From Betaproteobacteria bacterium (GTDB lineage Bacteria; Pseudomonadota; Gammaproteobacteria; Burkholderiales; SG8-41), in contig JANYCE010000256.1 of the NCBI GenBank assembly GCA_025360445.1, positions 1 through 37,401 of the forward strand: a stretch of 37,401 nt of DNA. The letters run 5' to 3'. Shown here piece after piece: positions 6,964 to 18,234 of the stretch (positions are counted from its first letter, which is position 1; each line of letters starts with the position of its first letter). The notes beneath the pieces were generated by a model, which did no database searches, was not told where the DNA came from, and worked only from the letters and a program-made list of their open reading frames with translations. The position numbers and the translations under genes are program-made.

Positions 6964-8391
6964 TTACGAATGACGGTGTTCGCCCACCTTGACAATTTTC
7001 ATCGTATTCGTACCTCCGGCTTTGCCGAACGGCTCGCCGATCGTCAATATCATGTAGTCGCCGGGATTGACCGCCCCGCGCTTCAATAGCTCGTCCTCCG
7101 CCATATAAAGTGCGCGTTCGGGATCTCTCGCACCTTTAAATTTGACGGGATAAACGCCGCGAAACAACGAAACGCGCCGGCGCGTTTCGACTACCGATGA
7201 CAGCGCGTAAATCGGCACGCTCGAGTTCATGCGCGACATCAATAACGCCGTTTTGCCGCTTTGAGTCAGCGCTGCGATTGCCTTGATCGACAGGCTGTTC
7301 GCCGTAAAAATGGTCGCGCGCGCAATTGCCTCTTCGACGGTTTCGGGTGGCCCTGGACGCCGGCGCTCGATGCTGAATGCATCTTCCTTTTCCGCCTCGA
7401 GGCAGACGCGAGCCATCGCGGCGACAGTCTCAACCGGGAACATGCCCGCCGCCGTTTCCGCAGACAGCATGACCGCATCAGTCCCGTCGAGCACGGCATT
7501 GGCGACGTCCGACACTTCAGCGCGCGTCGGGATTGGATTGTTGATCATCGACTCCATCATCTGGGTCGCCGTGATGACGAGTTTGTTGCGCTCGCGCGCC
7601 ATGCGGATCATGCGCTTTTGCAACGCCGGCACCACTGCGTCACCAACTTCGACCGCGAGGTCACCGCGCGCCACCATGATCGAATCCGACGCGTCGATGA
7701 TTTCCTCCAGCGCTGGAATCGCTTCGGCGCGTTCTATCTTGGCGCACAGCAATGCCTTGCCGCCCGCTTTGAGCATCAAGTCGCGCGCCCACTGGATGTC
7801 AGCGCCCGAGCGCGGAAACGATACCGCAAGATAATCGGCCTTGAGCTCCGCTGCGGTCTTGATGTCCTGCATATCTTTTTCAGTCAGCGCGGGCGCCGTC
7901 AGACCGCCGCCTTTGCGATTGATGCCTTTGTTGTTCGACAGCTGGCCGCCTTGCTCAATGAGGCAATAAATGCGCGACCCTTTGACCGCGGTCACCGCAA
8001 GCACGATGCGGCCGTCGTCGAGCAATAGCGTGTCGCCGGTTGACACGTCCTGCGGCAGATTTTTGTAATCGAGCCCGACGCGCGTCGCATCGCCGAGTTT
8101 ACATTCGGCGTCGAGCACGAACTTTTCGCCGCTTTTCAGCACGATACGGTCGTGCTCGAAGCGGCCAATGCGGATTTTGGGGCCTTGCAAGTCGACCAGC
8201 ACCCCGATCGAGCGGCCTGCTTTGCGCGCCAAAGCACGCACGAGTTCGACTCGCGCGCCGTGTTCCCTGGCAGTGCCATGCGAAAAATTCATGCGCACGA
8301 CGTCGAGGCCGGCGTCGATCATTCGCGCGAGCGTTTTACTATCGCTCGAAGCGGGTCCGAGCGTGGCAACTATTTTTGTGCGACGGGGCAT
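6964..8391 (-). CDS. pyk: Pyruvate kinase
   Basis: 475 aa; MPRRTKIVATLGPASSD, GLDVVRMNFSHGT, SIMVARGDLAVEVG, ITATQMMESMINNPIPTRAEVSDVANAVLDGTDAVMLSAETAAG. Confidence 0.98.
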   Translation of the reverse strand: MPRRTKIVATLGPASSDSKTLARMIDAGLDVVRMNFSHGTAREHGARVELVRALARKAGRSIGVLVDLQGPKIRIGRFEHDRIVLKSGEKFVLDAECKLGDATRVGLDYKNLPQDVSTGDTLLLDDGRIVLAVTAVKGSRIYCLIEQGGQLSNNKGINRKGGGLTAPALTEKDMQDIKTAAELKADYLAVSFPRSGADIQWARDLMLKAGGKALLCAKIERAEAIPALEEIIDASDSIMVARGDLAVEVGDAVVPALQKRMIRMARERNKLVITATQMMESMINNPIPTRAEVSDVANAVLDGTDAVMLSAETAAGMFPVETVAAMARVCLEAEKEDAFSIERRRPGPPETVEEAIARATIFTANSLSIKAIAALTQSGKTALLMSRMNSSVPIYALSSVVETRRRVSLFRGVYPVKFKGARDPERALYMAEDELLKRGAVNPGDYMILTIGEPFGKAGGTNTMKIVKVGEHRHS

Positions 8392-8475
8392 GTGAGTCAG
8401 GATTCAGTTAAAAGGAATGAAGATCGAACAGCGAGGAGCCTAGCTTGTTTTTAACCAATCCTCAATCCGGAATCC

Positions 8476-9660
8476 TCAAACTTTTCTCGCGCGTTGCTCG
8501 AGTATGTCCACAGCCGGCAGCTTTTTACCTTCAAGAAATTCCAGGAAAGCGCCGCCGCCGGTCGACATGTACGACACCTTGTCGGCGATTCCGTACTTCG
8601 CAATCGCTGCAAGCGTGTCGCCGCCGCCGGCGATTGAAAATGCGGCCGACTCTGCAATCGCGCGTGCTATGCGCGCAGTGCCGCCGCCAAACTGATCGAA
8701 TTCGAACACGCCGACCGGCCCGTTCCAGATGATTGTGCCCGCCTGAGCGATTAAACCTGCAAACATTTCAGCAGTGCGGGGTCCGATGTCTAGAATCATG
8801 TCATCGGCGCCGACGGCGTCCGCCGCTACCAGATTTGCGCGTGCACGCGCGGACAGCTCGGCCGCGACGACCACATCAACCGGCAGAGGTACTTGGGCGC
8901 CGCGTGATTTCATGTAATCAATGATCGCGTGCGCTTCGCTGATCAAGCCGGGTTCAGCGAGCGATTTACCGACCCGCAGCCCCATGGCCAGCATAAAGGT
9001 ATTGGCGATGCCTCCGCCCACGATTAACTGATCAACCTTTTCGGCGAGCGTTTTCAGAATAGTCAGCTTGGTCGAAACTTTCGACCCGGCGACGATTGCG
9101 ACGAGCGGATGCCCAGGTTCGCGCAATGCTTTGCCAAGCGCTGCAAGTTCGGCCGCCATCAGGGGGCCCGCACAGGCAACTGGCGCAAACTTCGCGATGC
9201 CATGGGTGGTCGCCTCGGCGCGGTGGGCGGTGCCGAATGCATCGTTCACATATACGTCGCATAACAACGCCATTTTTTTTGCGAGCGCGTCGTCATTTTT
9301 TTTCTCGCCTTTATTGAACCGGCAATTTTCAAGCACGACGACGTGGCCGGGATCAACAGTTACACCCTCTACCCAGTCAAGCAGCAAAGGCGCCGGGGCC
9401 TGCAGCAGTTGGCTTAAACGCTGCGCAATCGGAGCTAAAGAGTCCGCGGTGTTGAATTCCCCTTCGGTCGGGCGCCCAAGATGCGAAGTCACCATCACCG
9501 CGGCGCCCGCTTTTAGCGCGGCCTGAATTGCCGGTAACGATGCACGTATGCGTGTGTCGTCCGTGATGGTGCCCGCGGCGTCTTGCGGCACATTAAGATC
9601 AGCGCGAATAAACACCCGCTTGCCGGCGAGGTTTACTTCCTCCATTTTAATGACCGTCAT
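8476..9660 (-). CDS. pgk: Phosphoglycerate kinase
   Basis: [50 protein letters not shown]. Likely start ATG 9660 ([10 protein letters not shown]) or 9645; the ORF to 9732 overlaps gap. Confidence 0.97.
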
Positions 9661-9680
9661 GGCGATCGCAGGCGATGCCC

Positions 9681-12765
<3,085 letters not shown>

Positions 12766-12875: not shown

Positions 12876-14156
12876 CTATTCTTCGGTGCGCCGCGCGAGC
12901 TTGATGCCAAGTTGCTTGAGCTTGCGATAGAGGTGCGTGCGTTCGAGGCCAACGCTGTCGGCGACGCGGCTCATGTTGCCGCCTTCTTTGATGATGTGAT
13001 GCTCGAAATACACGCGCTCGAATGCATCGCGCGCTTCGCGCAGCGGTACATCAAGCGGCATCGCGGACGATGCTACTGCCGGCTGCGCGCCATAGGCAGG
13101 CAATGCCTGGTTCACTTCATTGACGCCGATTTCCTCGCCGGTCGCCGTCAAGGCAAGCGTGCGCACGACGCTTTCGAGTTGGTTAAGATTACCGGGCCAG
13201 TCATAATTTCGCAGCGCATTCAAGGCGGCGGTGCTGAAGTGACGCGGCGGCACTTCCTTCGCTTCGATTGCGCGCAGCAAAAATAAATTCGCGAGGTCCG
13301 GCACGTCTTCACGATGTTGGCGCAGGCTCGGTACGTTAACTGTTACCGCCGCAATGACGGCATACAGTTTGGCGTCAAATCCGCCTTGCGCGACGAGTTC
13401 CGGCAGCGCGCGCGAAGTCGCGCAAATGAGCCGCGTGTTGTATTTTTCCAGCTTGCCCGCAATCAGCAACAAGCCTTTTTGCTCCACCCGATTCAAGTCG
13501 CCGACTTCAGGCAGAAACAAAGTACCCTCGCGCGCCTGGTTTAAAAGATCGAGCGGTGTCTCAGCAAGTGCGGCAAGATTCTCGGGCTCGACCCACGGTG
13601 CATTCGGTTTGCCGGGTAACGGATTCGGTTGATGCACGAATCTCGCGCAGAGTTCGGCACCGCTGCCTGGTTCCGCCACCATCAACAGTGGCGACTTCAA
13701 ATTAGCCACGCGCTCAAGCCGCTGTTTCAGTTCTGTGACCACCGCCGCGCGCCCGAGCGTCGCCAGCATTAATAACGGCTTCATTTGGGGTTCGCCGCGT
13801 TTCAATGCGCGGCCTACGGTGCCAAGTAGTTTTTGCAGCGCGATCGGCTTTTCAAGGAAATCGAAGGCGCCGATGCGCGTCGCTTCGACCGCGGTATCGA
13901 TCGTGCCGTGGCCGGACATCATGACGACCGGCATGGTCAGCAGTCCTGCGCTTGCCCATTCTTTGAGCAACGTGATGCCATCAGTATCGGGCATCCAGAT
14001 ATCCAGCAACACCAGGTCGGGGCGGCCCTGCGAGCGTTGGGCGCGGGCCTGCGCGGCATTTTCAGCCAGCCGCACCTGATAACCCTCATCGCGCAGGATT
14101 TCCGACAGAAGCTCGCGAATTCCGACTTCATCATCGACCACTAAAATTTGCTGCAT
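12876..14156 (-). CDS. NtrX-like response regulator: intact receiver and Fis-type HTH, degenerate AAA+ sigma-54-interaction domain
   Basis: 426 aa; receiver ILVVDDEVGIRELL, LVLLDIWMPDTDG, FDFLEKPI; C-terminal Fis-like HTH GNMSRVADSVGLERTHLYRKLKQLGIK; central domain aligns to NtrC-family AAA+ but catalytic motifs are substituted. Confidence 0.9.
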   Translation of the reverse strand: MQQILVVDDEVGIRELLSEILRDEGYQVRLAENAAQARAQRSQGRPDLVLLDIWMPDTDGITLLKEWASAGLLTMPVVMMSGHGTIDTAVEATRIGAFDFLEKPIALQKLLGTVGRALKRGEPQMKPLLMLATLGRAAVVTELKQRLERVANLKSPLLMVAEPGSGAELCARFVHQPNPLPGKPNAPWVEPENLAALAETPLDLLNQAREGTLFLPEVGDLNRVEQKGLLLIAGKLEKYNTRLICATSRALPELVAQGGFDAKLYAVIAAVTVNVPSLRQHREDVPDLANLFLLRAIEAKEVPPRHFSTAALNALRNYDWPGNLNQLESVVRTLALTATGEEIGVNEVNQALPAYGAQPAVASSAMPLDVPLREARDAFERVYFEHHIIKEGGNMSRVADSVGLERTHLYRKLKQLGIKLARRTEE

Positions 14157-14208: not shown

Positions 14209-16410
14209 TCACGCACGCGCCGCGGTTTTGGCGGCCACGATTTGCACCGCACCGGCCGGAAAATTCAGCGTAACGCGCGCACCGTGCGGCGCCACGTTCG
14301 CCACTTCCACGCTGCCGCCATGCTCCTCGATAATTTTTTTCACGATCACCAGACCCAATCCGGTGCCCTTGGGCTTGGTCGTCACATACGGCTCGAACAC
14401 ACGCTGCATCAGATCCTGCGGAAACCCGCTGCCGTTATCGGCGATGGTCACGCGCATTCCGCTCGCGCGCGGCTCCGTGCGCACGACGATGCGCGGACTG
14501 TCCGCGTCGGCCAGCGCATCCTCGGCGTTCTGCAAAAGATTGTGGATGACCTGCCGTAACTGCGCGGGATCACCGACGATTCGCGGCAGATCAGGTGCGA
14601 GTTCGACCTGCAGCCGCCCGGCCAGCGACTCATACAACATCAAGACTTCGCGCAGCAATTCGTTGAAGTCGAGCTCCTGCCGGGTGGGTTCCGGCATGCG
14701 CGCATATTGACGGAACGCCTCGACCATATTTTTTAGAGCGCTTACCTGGTTGACAATGGTTTGAGTGGATCTCTTTAACATATCGGCGTCGGCGAGCCCG
14801 AGCTTGGCCGCGAGCTTGTGCTGCAATCGTTCAGCCGACAATTGAATTGGCGTAAGCGGATTTTTTATTTCATGGGCGAGCCGGCGCGCAACTTCGGTCC
14901 ACGCCGCATCGCGTTGCGCCTGCAACACGTGCGTGATGTCGTCGAATACGACGACCAATCCGGTGCCGCTGCCTGCCGGCAGCCGCGTGCCGCGCAACAG
15001 CAACATCTGATTGCCGCCTTTACCAGGGCGCTCGATTTGCTTGGACCATTCGTTGCCGGTACCGGCGTCGAACGCCGCTGCTATGTCGGCAGCGAGCTCC
15101 TTCAGTGCCGGCACGCGCTCATGCCAGTGTGCGAGATCAACTCCGCTGATCTGCGAAAAATCGGCGTCGAGAATAGCGCAGGCGCTGTGATTGAACGAGC
15201 GCAAGCGCAATGTTTCGTCGAATGCGAGCACGCCCGCCGACAAATTCGCCAGGATGCTTTGCACGTAGGTGTGCGCATCGGTCAGCTGCGCCTGATTGCG
15301 CTCGGCGGTCGCACGTGCATCGGCCAACTGCTGCCGCATCGCGTTAAACGATTGGGTGAGCACGCCGAGTTCGTCGCCGCTCGCAACGGTATCGCGCTGA
15401 CTGAAGTCACCTTGAGCCACCGCGCGCGTGCCCTCAACCAAAAAACTCAGTGGCGCAGACAACCGTTCACTGAGAACGACCGCAAACGACATCGCGGTCA
15501 GCAACGCGAGCAGCAGCGTTAGCGATAGCGTTATCCCGTACAGGCGCTTCAAGCCCAGCCGCGCGAGCAACAATTCCTGGTATTCGCGCTGGCCGGTTTG
15601 CACAATCTCCGCGTCGAGCGCAAGTTGCTCGGGCACGCGCTGCAAAAGTTGCAGAACGCGCATATCTTCACTAAGACTGATGGTATTTACCGCCACCAGC
15701 ACGCGTAAATACAGGCCTTTCTCCGGGAGCGCTTCGACCGCGCTATAGACTTGCTGCTGGCGCAATTGCCGCAACACATTTTGGCCGGGCAGGTCCGGCA
15801 TCAGCCCGGTCCGTTCGCTGCCTGCGTGCACAATAATCTTGCCGCGCGGCGTAAACAAGGTGGCTTCCTGCGCCCCGGCCTGCTCGCGCAACATGTTGAG
15901 GGCCGCGAAGTGTTCAAGCGCCGGCCGCGCTGACAGTGAAGCTGCCATGATGTCGGCTTTTTTTCGCAGATCCTGCAGCAGGTTGTCGAGCGTGGTGCGG
16001 CCCAGATTAAGACCGCCTTCAAGCGCCTTTTCAACCCGCACGTCAAACCACGACTCAATACTGCGCGAAACGAACTGGACGGACACACCATAAACGAGTG
16101 CGCCCGGTAGCACTGCCACCAGCGTGAAGAGCAGAACAAGGCGCAGGGTGAGCTTGGCGCCAAACACGCCGGCCTTGAGCTTCCGGCGCAACGCATACAG
16201 CTGATATCCGAGCAGCGCGGCCAGACAAACGGCAAGACCGCCGTTCAATGCGAGCAATGTCGGATAGTGTTGAGCGAACATCGTGGTGTTGGCGCTGGCT
16301 GTCGCGAGCAGGTACAGCGTGACGGCACCGACGACCGCGCACACAATCAGCAGATACTTGACCGCCGCGCTGCCAAACGCCATGCGGATGCCGGCAACGC
16401 CGGGAGTCAT
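14209..16410 (-). CDS. NtrY-like membrane sensor histidine kinase (HAMP, PAS, HisKA, HATPase)
   Basis: N-terminal TM segments, HAMP (SERLSAPLSFLVEGTRAVAQGDFSQRDT), H-box HEIKNPLTPIQLSAERL, N-box VIHNLLQNAEDAL, G-box GTGLGLVIVKKIIEEHGG. ATG at 16410 overlaps the DUF4390 stop by 4 bp; the ORF extends to 16434. Confidence 0.95.
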   Translation of the reverse strand: MTPGVAGIRMAFGSAAVKYLLIVCAVVGAVTLYLLATASANTTMFAQHYPTLLALNGGLAVCLAALLGYQLYALRRKLKAGVFGAKLTLRLVLLFTLVAVLPGALVYGVSVQFVSRSIESWFDVRVEKALEGGLNLGRTTLDNLLQDLRKKADIMAASLSARPALEHFAALNMLREQAGAQEATLFTPRGKIIVHAGSERTGLMPDLPGQNVLRQLRQQQVYSAVEALPEKGLYLRVLVAVNTISLSEDMRVLQLLQRVPEQLALDAEIVQTGQREYQELLLARLGLKRLYGITLSLTLLLALLTAMSFAVVLSERLSAPLSFLVEGTRAVAQGDFSQRDTVASGDELGVLTQSFNAMRQQLADARATAERNQAQLTDAHTYVQSILANLSAGVLAFDETLRLRSFNHSACAILDADFSQISGVDLAHWHERVPALKELAADIAAAFDAGTGNEWSKQIERPGKGGNQMLLLRGTRLPAGSGTGLVVVFDDITHVLQAQRDAAWTEVARRLAHEIKNPLTPIQLSAERLQHKLAAKLGLADADMLKRSTQTIVNQVSALKNMVEAFRQYARMPEPTRQELDFNELLREVLMLYESLAGRLQVELAPDLPRIVGDPAQLRQVIHNLLQNAEDALADADSPRIVVRTEPRASGMRVTIADNGSGFPQDLMQRVFEPYVTTKPKGTGLGLVIVKKIIEEHGGSVEVANVAPHGARVTLNFPAGAVQIVAAKTAARA

Positions 16411-16988
16411 GGCGTCATACTCCAGCGATGCCACTCTGAGCCGAAATTCCAGTCGCGCGAGGCGAGCGCATTCAACTGGAACGGTTTAGGCAACTGCGAC
16501 ACGTCCAAACGCATTCGCACGCCGGCGGTATAGGTGTTGCCTTTTTCGAGCATGCCGGACTCGAGCACCTGGCGGCGGCGCACCCGCGACAGAAAATCAA
16601 GTGCTTCGGATAAAGAACCGAAATTCTGAAACAACGCACCGAGGCCAAGCCGGTACTGGCGGGTCAATGCGTGATACGCAAGCCGATACTGTTGTTGGTT
16701 GTTCAGCACTTTCTCGTTCAACCAATACCAACGCGGCCTTATCACCTCGAATTCAAGCAGGAAGTACAAAGGCACGCCTTTGTTGAGAGCCTCTTCCAGT
16801 GTGGGATTGAGCGCGATTTCGAAGTCAGCCTCGAGAAAATAACCTTCCTCGCCAACGACGAGCGCGGCGTTGCGCACGTCGATACCTTCGGCTTGCGCAG
16901 CGACGCCCAGCACCAGCGCCAATGCGCAGGCGAGCAGCGCGATGAGGCGGCTAAGTTTTTTGGAGCAGCGCGTAAAAAAAACCGTCAT
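16407..16988 (-). CDS. DUF4390-type protein upstream of NtrY-like kinase
   Basis: Signal-peptide-like N-terminus MTVFFTRCSKKLSRLIALLACALALVLGVAAQA, then IDVRNAALVVGEEGYFLEADFEIALNPTLEEALNKGVPLYFLLEFEVIRPRWYW; conserved position between rsmB and ntrY. Confidence 0.85.
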   Translation of the reverse strand: MTVFFTRCSKKLSRLIALLACALALVLGVAAQAEGIDVRNAALVVGEEGYFLEADFEIALNPTLEEALNKGVPLYFLLEFEVIRPRWYWLNEKVLNNQQQYRLAYHALTRQYRLGLGALFQNFGSLSEALDFLSRVRRRQVLESGMLEKGNTYTAGVRMRLDVSQLPKPFQLNALASRDWNFGSEWHRWSMTP

Positions 16989-18234
16989 GCTCGCTATCAG
17001 GCAGCAATTGGCCGTCCGGTGTCCCGTCCAAGGCATGCACTCCGCTTAATGGCAGCTGTTTGGCGTCGGCGTGCCGCACCAGAAAATCGGCTACCTGCAG
17101 TGAGTTTTCTTCCTGGAAAATTGAGCACGTTGTATATAGCAATTTACCACCACTGGCCAGCAATCGCCACAGACTATCGAGCATAAGTTGCTGTTGTTTC
17201 ACGAATTGCGGGATGTCGCTCATGCGCCTCAACCACTTGATGTCAGGATGACGGCGCACCACGCCCGACGCGCTGCACGGCAGGTCAGCGAGGATGCGCT
17301 CGAACGGCGTGCGATCCCACCACGCGTCGGTATCGGTTACGTCGGCGCTCAACAGTGCGGCCTTCAAATTTAGCCGCGACAGATTTTGCTGAACACGCGC
17401 AAGCCGGGTTGCGTCATGGTCGACGGCGATTAATTCGAGATCGGCAATTTCCAGCAGATGCGTGGTCTTACCGCCCGGCGCGGCACACGCATCCAGTACG
17501 CGCATCCCCGCCTGCGCATCAAGGAGCGGTGCGGCACATTGCGCAGCCGCGTCCTGCACGGACACCAAGCCCTCGGCAAAACCCGGCAACCGCTCGACCG
17601 GCATTGCGCGCGCGAGCGTGACGCCATCTTCGCCAACAGCAGTGGCCGCGATATCGTTTTCTGTAAGCAGTCCGAGGTAGGCGTCGCGCGTTGTGCGGCG
17701 GCGATTCACGCGCAGGGTCAGCGGCGGGTGCAGATTTCCCGCCACAAGAATGTCCGCGAATTTGCGCGAATACTGCTTACGTAATTTATCGATCCACCAT
17801 TGCGGATAAGCATAGCGGCCGCTGTCAGTGGCGGCCGCTCTTGCCAGCAACGCCTCGCGCTTACGCAAAAAATTGCGCAGGACTGCATTGACGAGGCCGC
17901 GCGCTTGCGGCTTGCCAAGCGCAGTCGCACATTGTACGGCGTGATCGACAATCGCATACGGCGCCGCCCGTGTGTATTGCAACTGATACAACGCCACTAA
18001 CAGCAACCAGCGCAACGCTTCGTCCTGCAGAGTTTTGGTCAGAAGCTGCGCCAGGATGGCGTCGAGCTGGCCGCCGAAGCGCAGGGTGCCGTAGCATAAG
18101 TCGGTGATTGTCGAGCGTTGTTGTGGACTTAACTGCGGGTGACGCGGCCACAGTTCGGCCAGCGCTGAATTCAGATTGCGGCCGCCCGCCACTGCGGCGA
18201 CTGTAGCGCAGGCAAGCCGCTGGATTTCTAGCAC
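16951..18234 (-). CDS. rsmB: 16S rRNA (cytosine-967-C5)-methyltransferase RsmB
   Basis: 427 aa, GTG start; N-terminal NusB-like region, VLDACAAPGGKTTHLLE, LPCSASGVVRRHPDIKWLRR, LYTTCSIFQEEN. Confidence 0.95.
   Translation of the reverse strand: MLEIQRLACATVAAVAGGRNLNSALAELWPRHPQLSPQQRSTITDLCYGTLRFGGQLDAILAQLLTKTLQDEALRWLLLVALYQLQYTRAAPYAIVDHAVQCATALGKPQARGLVNAVLRNFLRKREALLARAAATDSGRYAYPQWWIDKLRKQYSRKFADILVAGNLHPPLTLRVNRRRTTRDAYLGLLTENDIAATAVGEDGVTLARAMPVERLPGFAEGLVSVQDAAAQCAAPLLDAQAGMRVLDACAAPGGKTTHLLEIADLELIAVDHDATRLARVQQNLSRLNLKAALLSADVTDTDAWWDRTPFERILADLPCSASGVVRRHPDIKWLRRMSDIPQFVKQQQLMLDSLWRLLASGGKLLYTTCSIFQEENSLQVADFLVRHADAKQLPLSGVHALDGTPDGQLLPDSEHDGFFYALLQKT

Follow-up and report, generated by a model that had tools for sequence, protein, structure and literature searches.

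The window analysed here is a stretch of DNA of 37,401 nucleotides, and it carries on its minus strand an ntrX gene (12876..14156), whose open reading frame and Pfam matches define a response regulator of 426 aa with a receiver domain, a pseudo-AAA+ domain, an AAA+ lid and a Fis-type helix-turn-helix (HTH) region. The initial annotation had given exactly these coordinates without naming the strand; the plus-strand reading contains stops. Upstream of ntrX, three neighbours lie on the same strand: ntrY (14209..16434, minus), which encodes a PlrS-like sensor kinase with HAMP, HisKA, HATPase_c and NtrY_N matches and, as had been noted, an intact H-box (HEIKN); the gene for a DUF4390 protein, a PlrP homolog (16407..17036, minus; PF14334, 2.3e-56); and rsmB, encoding a 16S rRNA methyltransferase (16951..18234, minus; PF01189, 3e-55). 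The order rsmB-plrP-plrS-plrR is known from beta- and some gamma-proteobacteria (PMC13001219). Just downstream of ntrX, the minus-strand ORFs at 6964-12765 look by eye like transketolase, glyceraldehyde-3-phosphate dehydrogenase, phosphoglycerate kinase and pyruvate kinase, with a gap of ~110 bp between ntrX and the transketolase-like ORF. No evident conserved promoter or operator was seen in a genus alignment of the gap between ntrY and ntrX. The published candidate NtrX site GCAn9TGC (PMC7240162) was sought upstream of mraZ, the sole target-motif test made, and found in 1 of the 26 upstream regions, compared with 1.4 expected, which lends it no support.

The two ends of NtrX are intact by Pfam match and alignment, as had been annotated for the phospho-acceptor Asp and the HTH. 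The receiver domain (residues 1-120; 13797..14156, minus; PF00072, 2e-29) keeps D8, D9, D52 (the phospho-acceptor), S81 and K103, and the Fis-type region (residues 367-420; 12897..13058, minus) matches PF02954 and shows HTH helices in the structure model. Between them, the pseudo-AAA+ core (residues 134-278; 13323..13757, minus) matches PF14532 (4e-38) and has an AAA+ fold in the model, and its lid (residues 279-353; 13098..13322, minus) matches PF25601 (1.5e-16). The strings quoted in the initial annotation (AEPGSGAEL, GTLFLPEVGDL at 211-221, FDAKLYAVIAA at 260-270, LEKP and WPGNLNQLE) are all present in the translation, and alignment to canonical bEBPs bore out most of what had been concluded from them. 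The Walker A segment AEPGSGAEL (residues 161-169; 13650..13676, minus) has lost its Lys to Ala167. The ELFGHxxGAFTGA loop is deleted, with the stretch NPLPGKPNAPW...LLNQ (residues 178-207; 13536..13625, minus) in its place, and both Arg-finger arginines are gone, their positions in the segment FDAKLYAVI (residues 260-268; 13353..13379, minus) being taken by D261 and V267. In Walker B (GTLFLPE, residues 211-217; 13506..13526, minus), the Asp has indeed been replaced by Pro216, but the second acidic residue, Glu217, is still there. The WPGNxxQLE landmark, which had been counted as retained, is present as a string, but the sensor II Arg within it is lost (N325).

Profile searches gave a concordant domain assignment (Response_reg, Sigma54_activ_2, AAA_lid_14 and HTH_8). 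PF14532 (Sigma54_activ_2) matched NtrX over positions 1-138 of 138 with 131 bits against a curated cut-off of 25, and it matched 52 of 52 NtrX orthologs, while PF00158 was matched via its C-terminal half only. The NCBIfam NtrX equivalog NF051870 was the best-scoring family and aligned over its full length (1-418), at 302 bits, which is below its curated cut-off of 600. In sum, the GAFTGA loop, the Walker A Lys, the Walker B Asp, the Arg finger and the sensor II Arg that mark a canonical bEBP are missing, and the features of the beta/PlrSR branch of the NtrYX family, namely a receiver and a Fis-type HTH with a conserved phospho-Asp and the rsmB-DUF4390-ntrY-ntrX synteny, are present. Judged by its sequence, NtrX should be unable to hydrolyse ATP or to remodel the sigma-54 holoenzyme.

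To place these substitutions, NtrX sequences extracted from the relatives and from 200 genomes of the order were aligned together with those from named records and from a sample spanning the class, and 158 distinct full-length beta-type proteins remained after the removal of duplicates. An NtrX match was found in 60 of the 60 relatives searched. Some of the orthologs are full length (~410-440 aa), and the others consist of receiver and HTH alone (~206-302 aa). D52, S81 and K103 are invariant in all 158 full-length beta-type orthologs, among which the Walker A Lys occurs once, the Walker B Asp in eight and the first Arg-finger Arg (position 261) in none, this position being Asp in 135 and Glu in 16. 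The substitutions are thus lineage-wide, as the initial annotation had proposed to check, and the pseudo-AAA+ state, being common to the whole lineage, is not peculiar to the window's genome. A loss unique to the window's ntrX is ruled out, since its relatives have the same kind of change. The earlier picture of a dead ATPase and sigma-54 function between a maintained phospho-switch and DNA-binding end is supported by sequence, but its restriction to a single ORF is not. Carriers of the pseudo-AAA+ form include Nitrosomonas, Nitrosospira, Thiobacillus, Chromobacterium, Neisseria, Snodgrassella, Dechloromonas, Accumulibacter and Methylotenera. Nine gamma-type NtrX, encoded at DUF4390-linked loci in other parts of the class, all lack GAFTGA as well; their Walker A position is Lys in seven and Arg in two, and eight of the nine have the first Arg-finger Arg.

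Several single sequences deserve mention. The one beta-type protein with a Walker A Lys (L124) was considered as a surviving ATP-site form and rejected, as it has Arg in Walker B and Asp at the Arg finger and is nested in the pseudo-AAA+ clade; its Lys is probably a chance re-substitution. One gamma-type NtrX (L107, genome G292) is without the Arg finger, the Walker B Asp and the sensor II Arg; it seems to have lost them separately from the beta lineage. Genome G058 encodes a second NtrX-like protein (L075; G058:C29:91241-92587) of 42-47% identity, a separately degrading copy with a gamma-like loop length, in which the Walker A Lys is replaced by Arg and the Walker B Asp by Lys. Five MAG records titled Bordetella parapertussis or Klebsiella pneumoniae (L170, L171, L182, L220 and L239) contain a pseudo-AAA+ NtrX resembling environmental beta-proteobacterial ones, and their species titles look misassigned.

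The history of the domain was traced on a tree of NtrY and the receiver, from which the columns of the trait itself were excluded (101 rows, quick IQ-TREE, root set on the outgroup). The gamma type grouped in a single clade, and the beta forms all fell into the other. The AAA-less proteins, which are clean receiver-linker-HTH proteins, are nested among pseudo-AAA+ forms as an 18-row clade, a two-row clade (L142 and L147) and one single sequence (L119); they require three changes on this tree, and three are forced by well-supported branches. The domain has hence been deleted whole in at least three beta lineages, from pseudo-AAA+ ancestors, to yield PlrR-like proteins. The simplest history is that GAFTGA was lost before the ATP site, which disappeared at the base of the beta forms, and that repeated deletion of the domain followed; we infer the sequence of the earliest steps from the root placed on the outgroup.

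Where the domain persists, it is not decaying but under purifying selection. The median dN/dS within the genus was 0.042 for the receiver and 0.044 for the HTH, 0.090 for the lid and 0.585 for the linker after it; the value for the pseudo-AAA+ core was 0.134. Many pairs have a saturated dS, and the less saturated ones gave 0.03-0.18 for the core. A canonical paralogue from this genus gave 0.105 over its AAA+ region. An AlphaFold model built on a 52-sequence alignment yielded an AAA+ core and lid with a mean pLDDT of 86, and its pTM of 0.55 means that the relative placement of the domains is uncertain. The closest solved structures, both by sequence and by fold, were those of Brucella NtrX, and PspF and similar single AAA+ domains reached a target-normalised TM of ~0.7 against the model.

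Overall, we consider it probable that NtrX is a phosphorylation-switched, sigma-54-independent DNA-binding regulator that retains a dead AAA+ domain as a scaffold. NtrY would phosphorylate D52 of the receiver, with the DUF4390 protein PlrP probably tuning the kinase, and phosphorylation may alter the dimer or the domain arrangement of NtrX. The Fis-type HTH would then bind target promoters and regulate transcription by the housekeeping polymerase, presumably at sigma-70 promoters; by analogy, the original proposal that NtrX represses, or acts through sigma-70, is plausible. The AAA+ domain itself, predicted to be incapable of normal ATP binding, of hydrolysis and of sigma-54 contact, would remain as a folded scaffold which evolution can dispense with and which spaces the receiver and the HTH or dimerises them.

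The purifying selection on the pseudo-domain could also reflect an active role beyond that of a scaffold. According to this alternative, which we regard as unlikely, the pseudo-AAA+ domain has been repurposed as a module that binds a ligand or partner (e.g. another nucleotide or a second messenger) and modulates DNA binding. Its constraint (0.134 for the core and 0.090 for the lid) is close to that of the canonical AAA+ region (0.105), a new acidic residue stands at the Arg-finger position in 151 of the 158 orthologs, W188 is 88% conserved among beta-type orthologs, and VpsR and FleQ, related folds that bind c-di-GMP, are among the fold matches. However, the conserved columns are mostly fold-core residues common to canonical AAA+ domains, and D261 immediately precedes the modelled helix 262-268, so the acidic residue could be a helix N-cap in this model. 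The at least three deletions also speak against such a role. In a further version, to which we likewise give little credence, the domain would join a second signal to receiver phosphorylation and would have been lost independently where this signal was unneeded.

Far less probable than either of these readings is that NtrX remains a residual sigma-54 activator with non-canonical residues. The source genome (3.19 Mb, 431 contigs) would permit it: a genome without sigma-54 is ruled out by rpoN on contig C295, the presence of which had been another check proposed at the outset, and four other PF00158 proteins each have canonical Walker A, GAFTGA, Walker B and Arg-finger motifs by alignment. The same facts show that the loss is confined to NtrX and is no consequence of rpoN loss here, and against residual activity stands the lineage-wide loss of the GAFTGA loop, the Walker A Lys, the Walker B Asp, the Arg finger and the sensor II Arg. 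Furthermore, NtrX is kept in genomes in which rpoN was undetected. A Sigma54_DBD match was missing in 14 of the 200 genomes of the order, and NtrX was sought in eight of these. A full-length pseudo-AAA+ NtrX is kept in G350 and G392 (98-99% complete, DUF4390 present) and in G454 (91% complete), and a full-length NtrX is kept in G396 despite DUF4390 being undetected; if these genomes truly lack rpoN, the maintained function of NtrX is independent of sigma-54 there. One family (f199; G351, G393, G428, G460 and G489) lacked DUF4390 and Sigma54_DBD matches in five of five sampled genomes, and a search of G351 for NtrX gave no match; this family may have lost the NtrYX cluster together with rpoN. 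As for an assembly artefact or a decaying pseudogene, which a fragmented assembly (84% complete) might invite, the chance is negligible, as an independent genome with 98% identity (L008) has the same residues, the orthologs in relatives are open frames, and dN/dS is far below 1.

Among characterised systems, Brucella NtrX is likewise a GAFTGA-less protein, and the aligned Brucella abortus chain (PDB 5M7N/5M7O/5M7P), with the same REC-AAA+-Fis layout, agrees. In the work of Fernandez et al. 2017 (J Mol Biol 429:1192), it reportedly binds ATP without ATPase activity and autorepresses. Unlike the window's NtrX, it has the Walker A Lys, the Walker B acid, the FREDL Arg finger and the sensor II Arg; of these residues, the window's protein retains the Walker B Glu alone. 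Other GAFTGA-less bEBP relatives, namely VspR and the NtrC proteins of R. capsulatus and Caulobacter, are reported to work at sigma-70 promoters, and Caulobacter NtrX is GAFTGA-less too (PMC10274813). Those relatives, however, are separate lineages with a retained ATP site, and ATP binding is still required by R. capsulatus NtrC (PMC10274813). Closer in lineage are two Neisseria sequences (L240 and L241), ~50% identical to the window's NtrX and of the same pseudo-AAA+ form; Neisseria ntrX mutants express respiration genes at a lower level and have an abnormal morphology. In Azoarcus olearius, ntrX is putatively essential (PMC9769520), and a review (PMC12697260) states that NtrX proteins fall into "four different classes" but cites a MisR/MisS paper for this.

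Bordetella PlrR, the regulator of PlrSR, shares with the window's NtrX the rsmB-plrP-kinase-regulator cluster and the type of receiver and HTH, and its phosphorylation is essential (PMC13001219). PlrSR has been assigned to the NtrYX family with the statement that beta NtrX "lacks AAA+" (PMC13001219); unlike in that picture, the NtrX of the window has the domain, as a pseudo-domain. What is already known, then, is that atypical NtrX proteins can be without GAFTGA and that beta NtrX has been described as AAA+-less. To this our analysis adds a folded, constrained pseudo-AAA+ domain in many beta-proteobacteria and its complete loss on at least three occasions, findings that may be partly published. 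An annotation as "sigma-54 dependent regulator" would mislead on how such proteins work. The pseudo-AAA+ form stands midway between NtrX proteins with an ATP site and Bordetella PlrR, which has no AAA+ domain, and the three together offer a natural series for studying the conversion of a sigma-54 activator into an ordinary response regulator.
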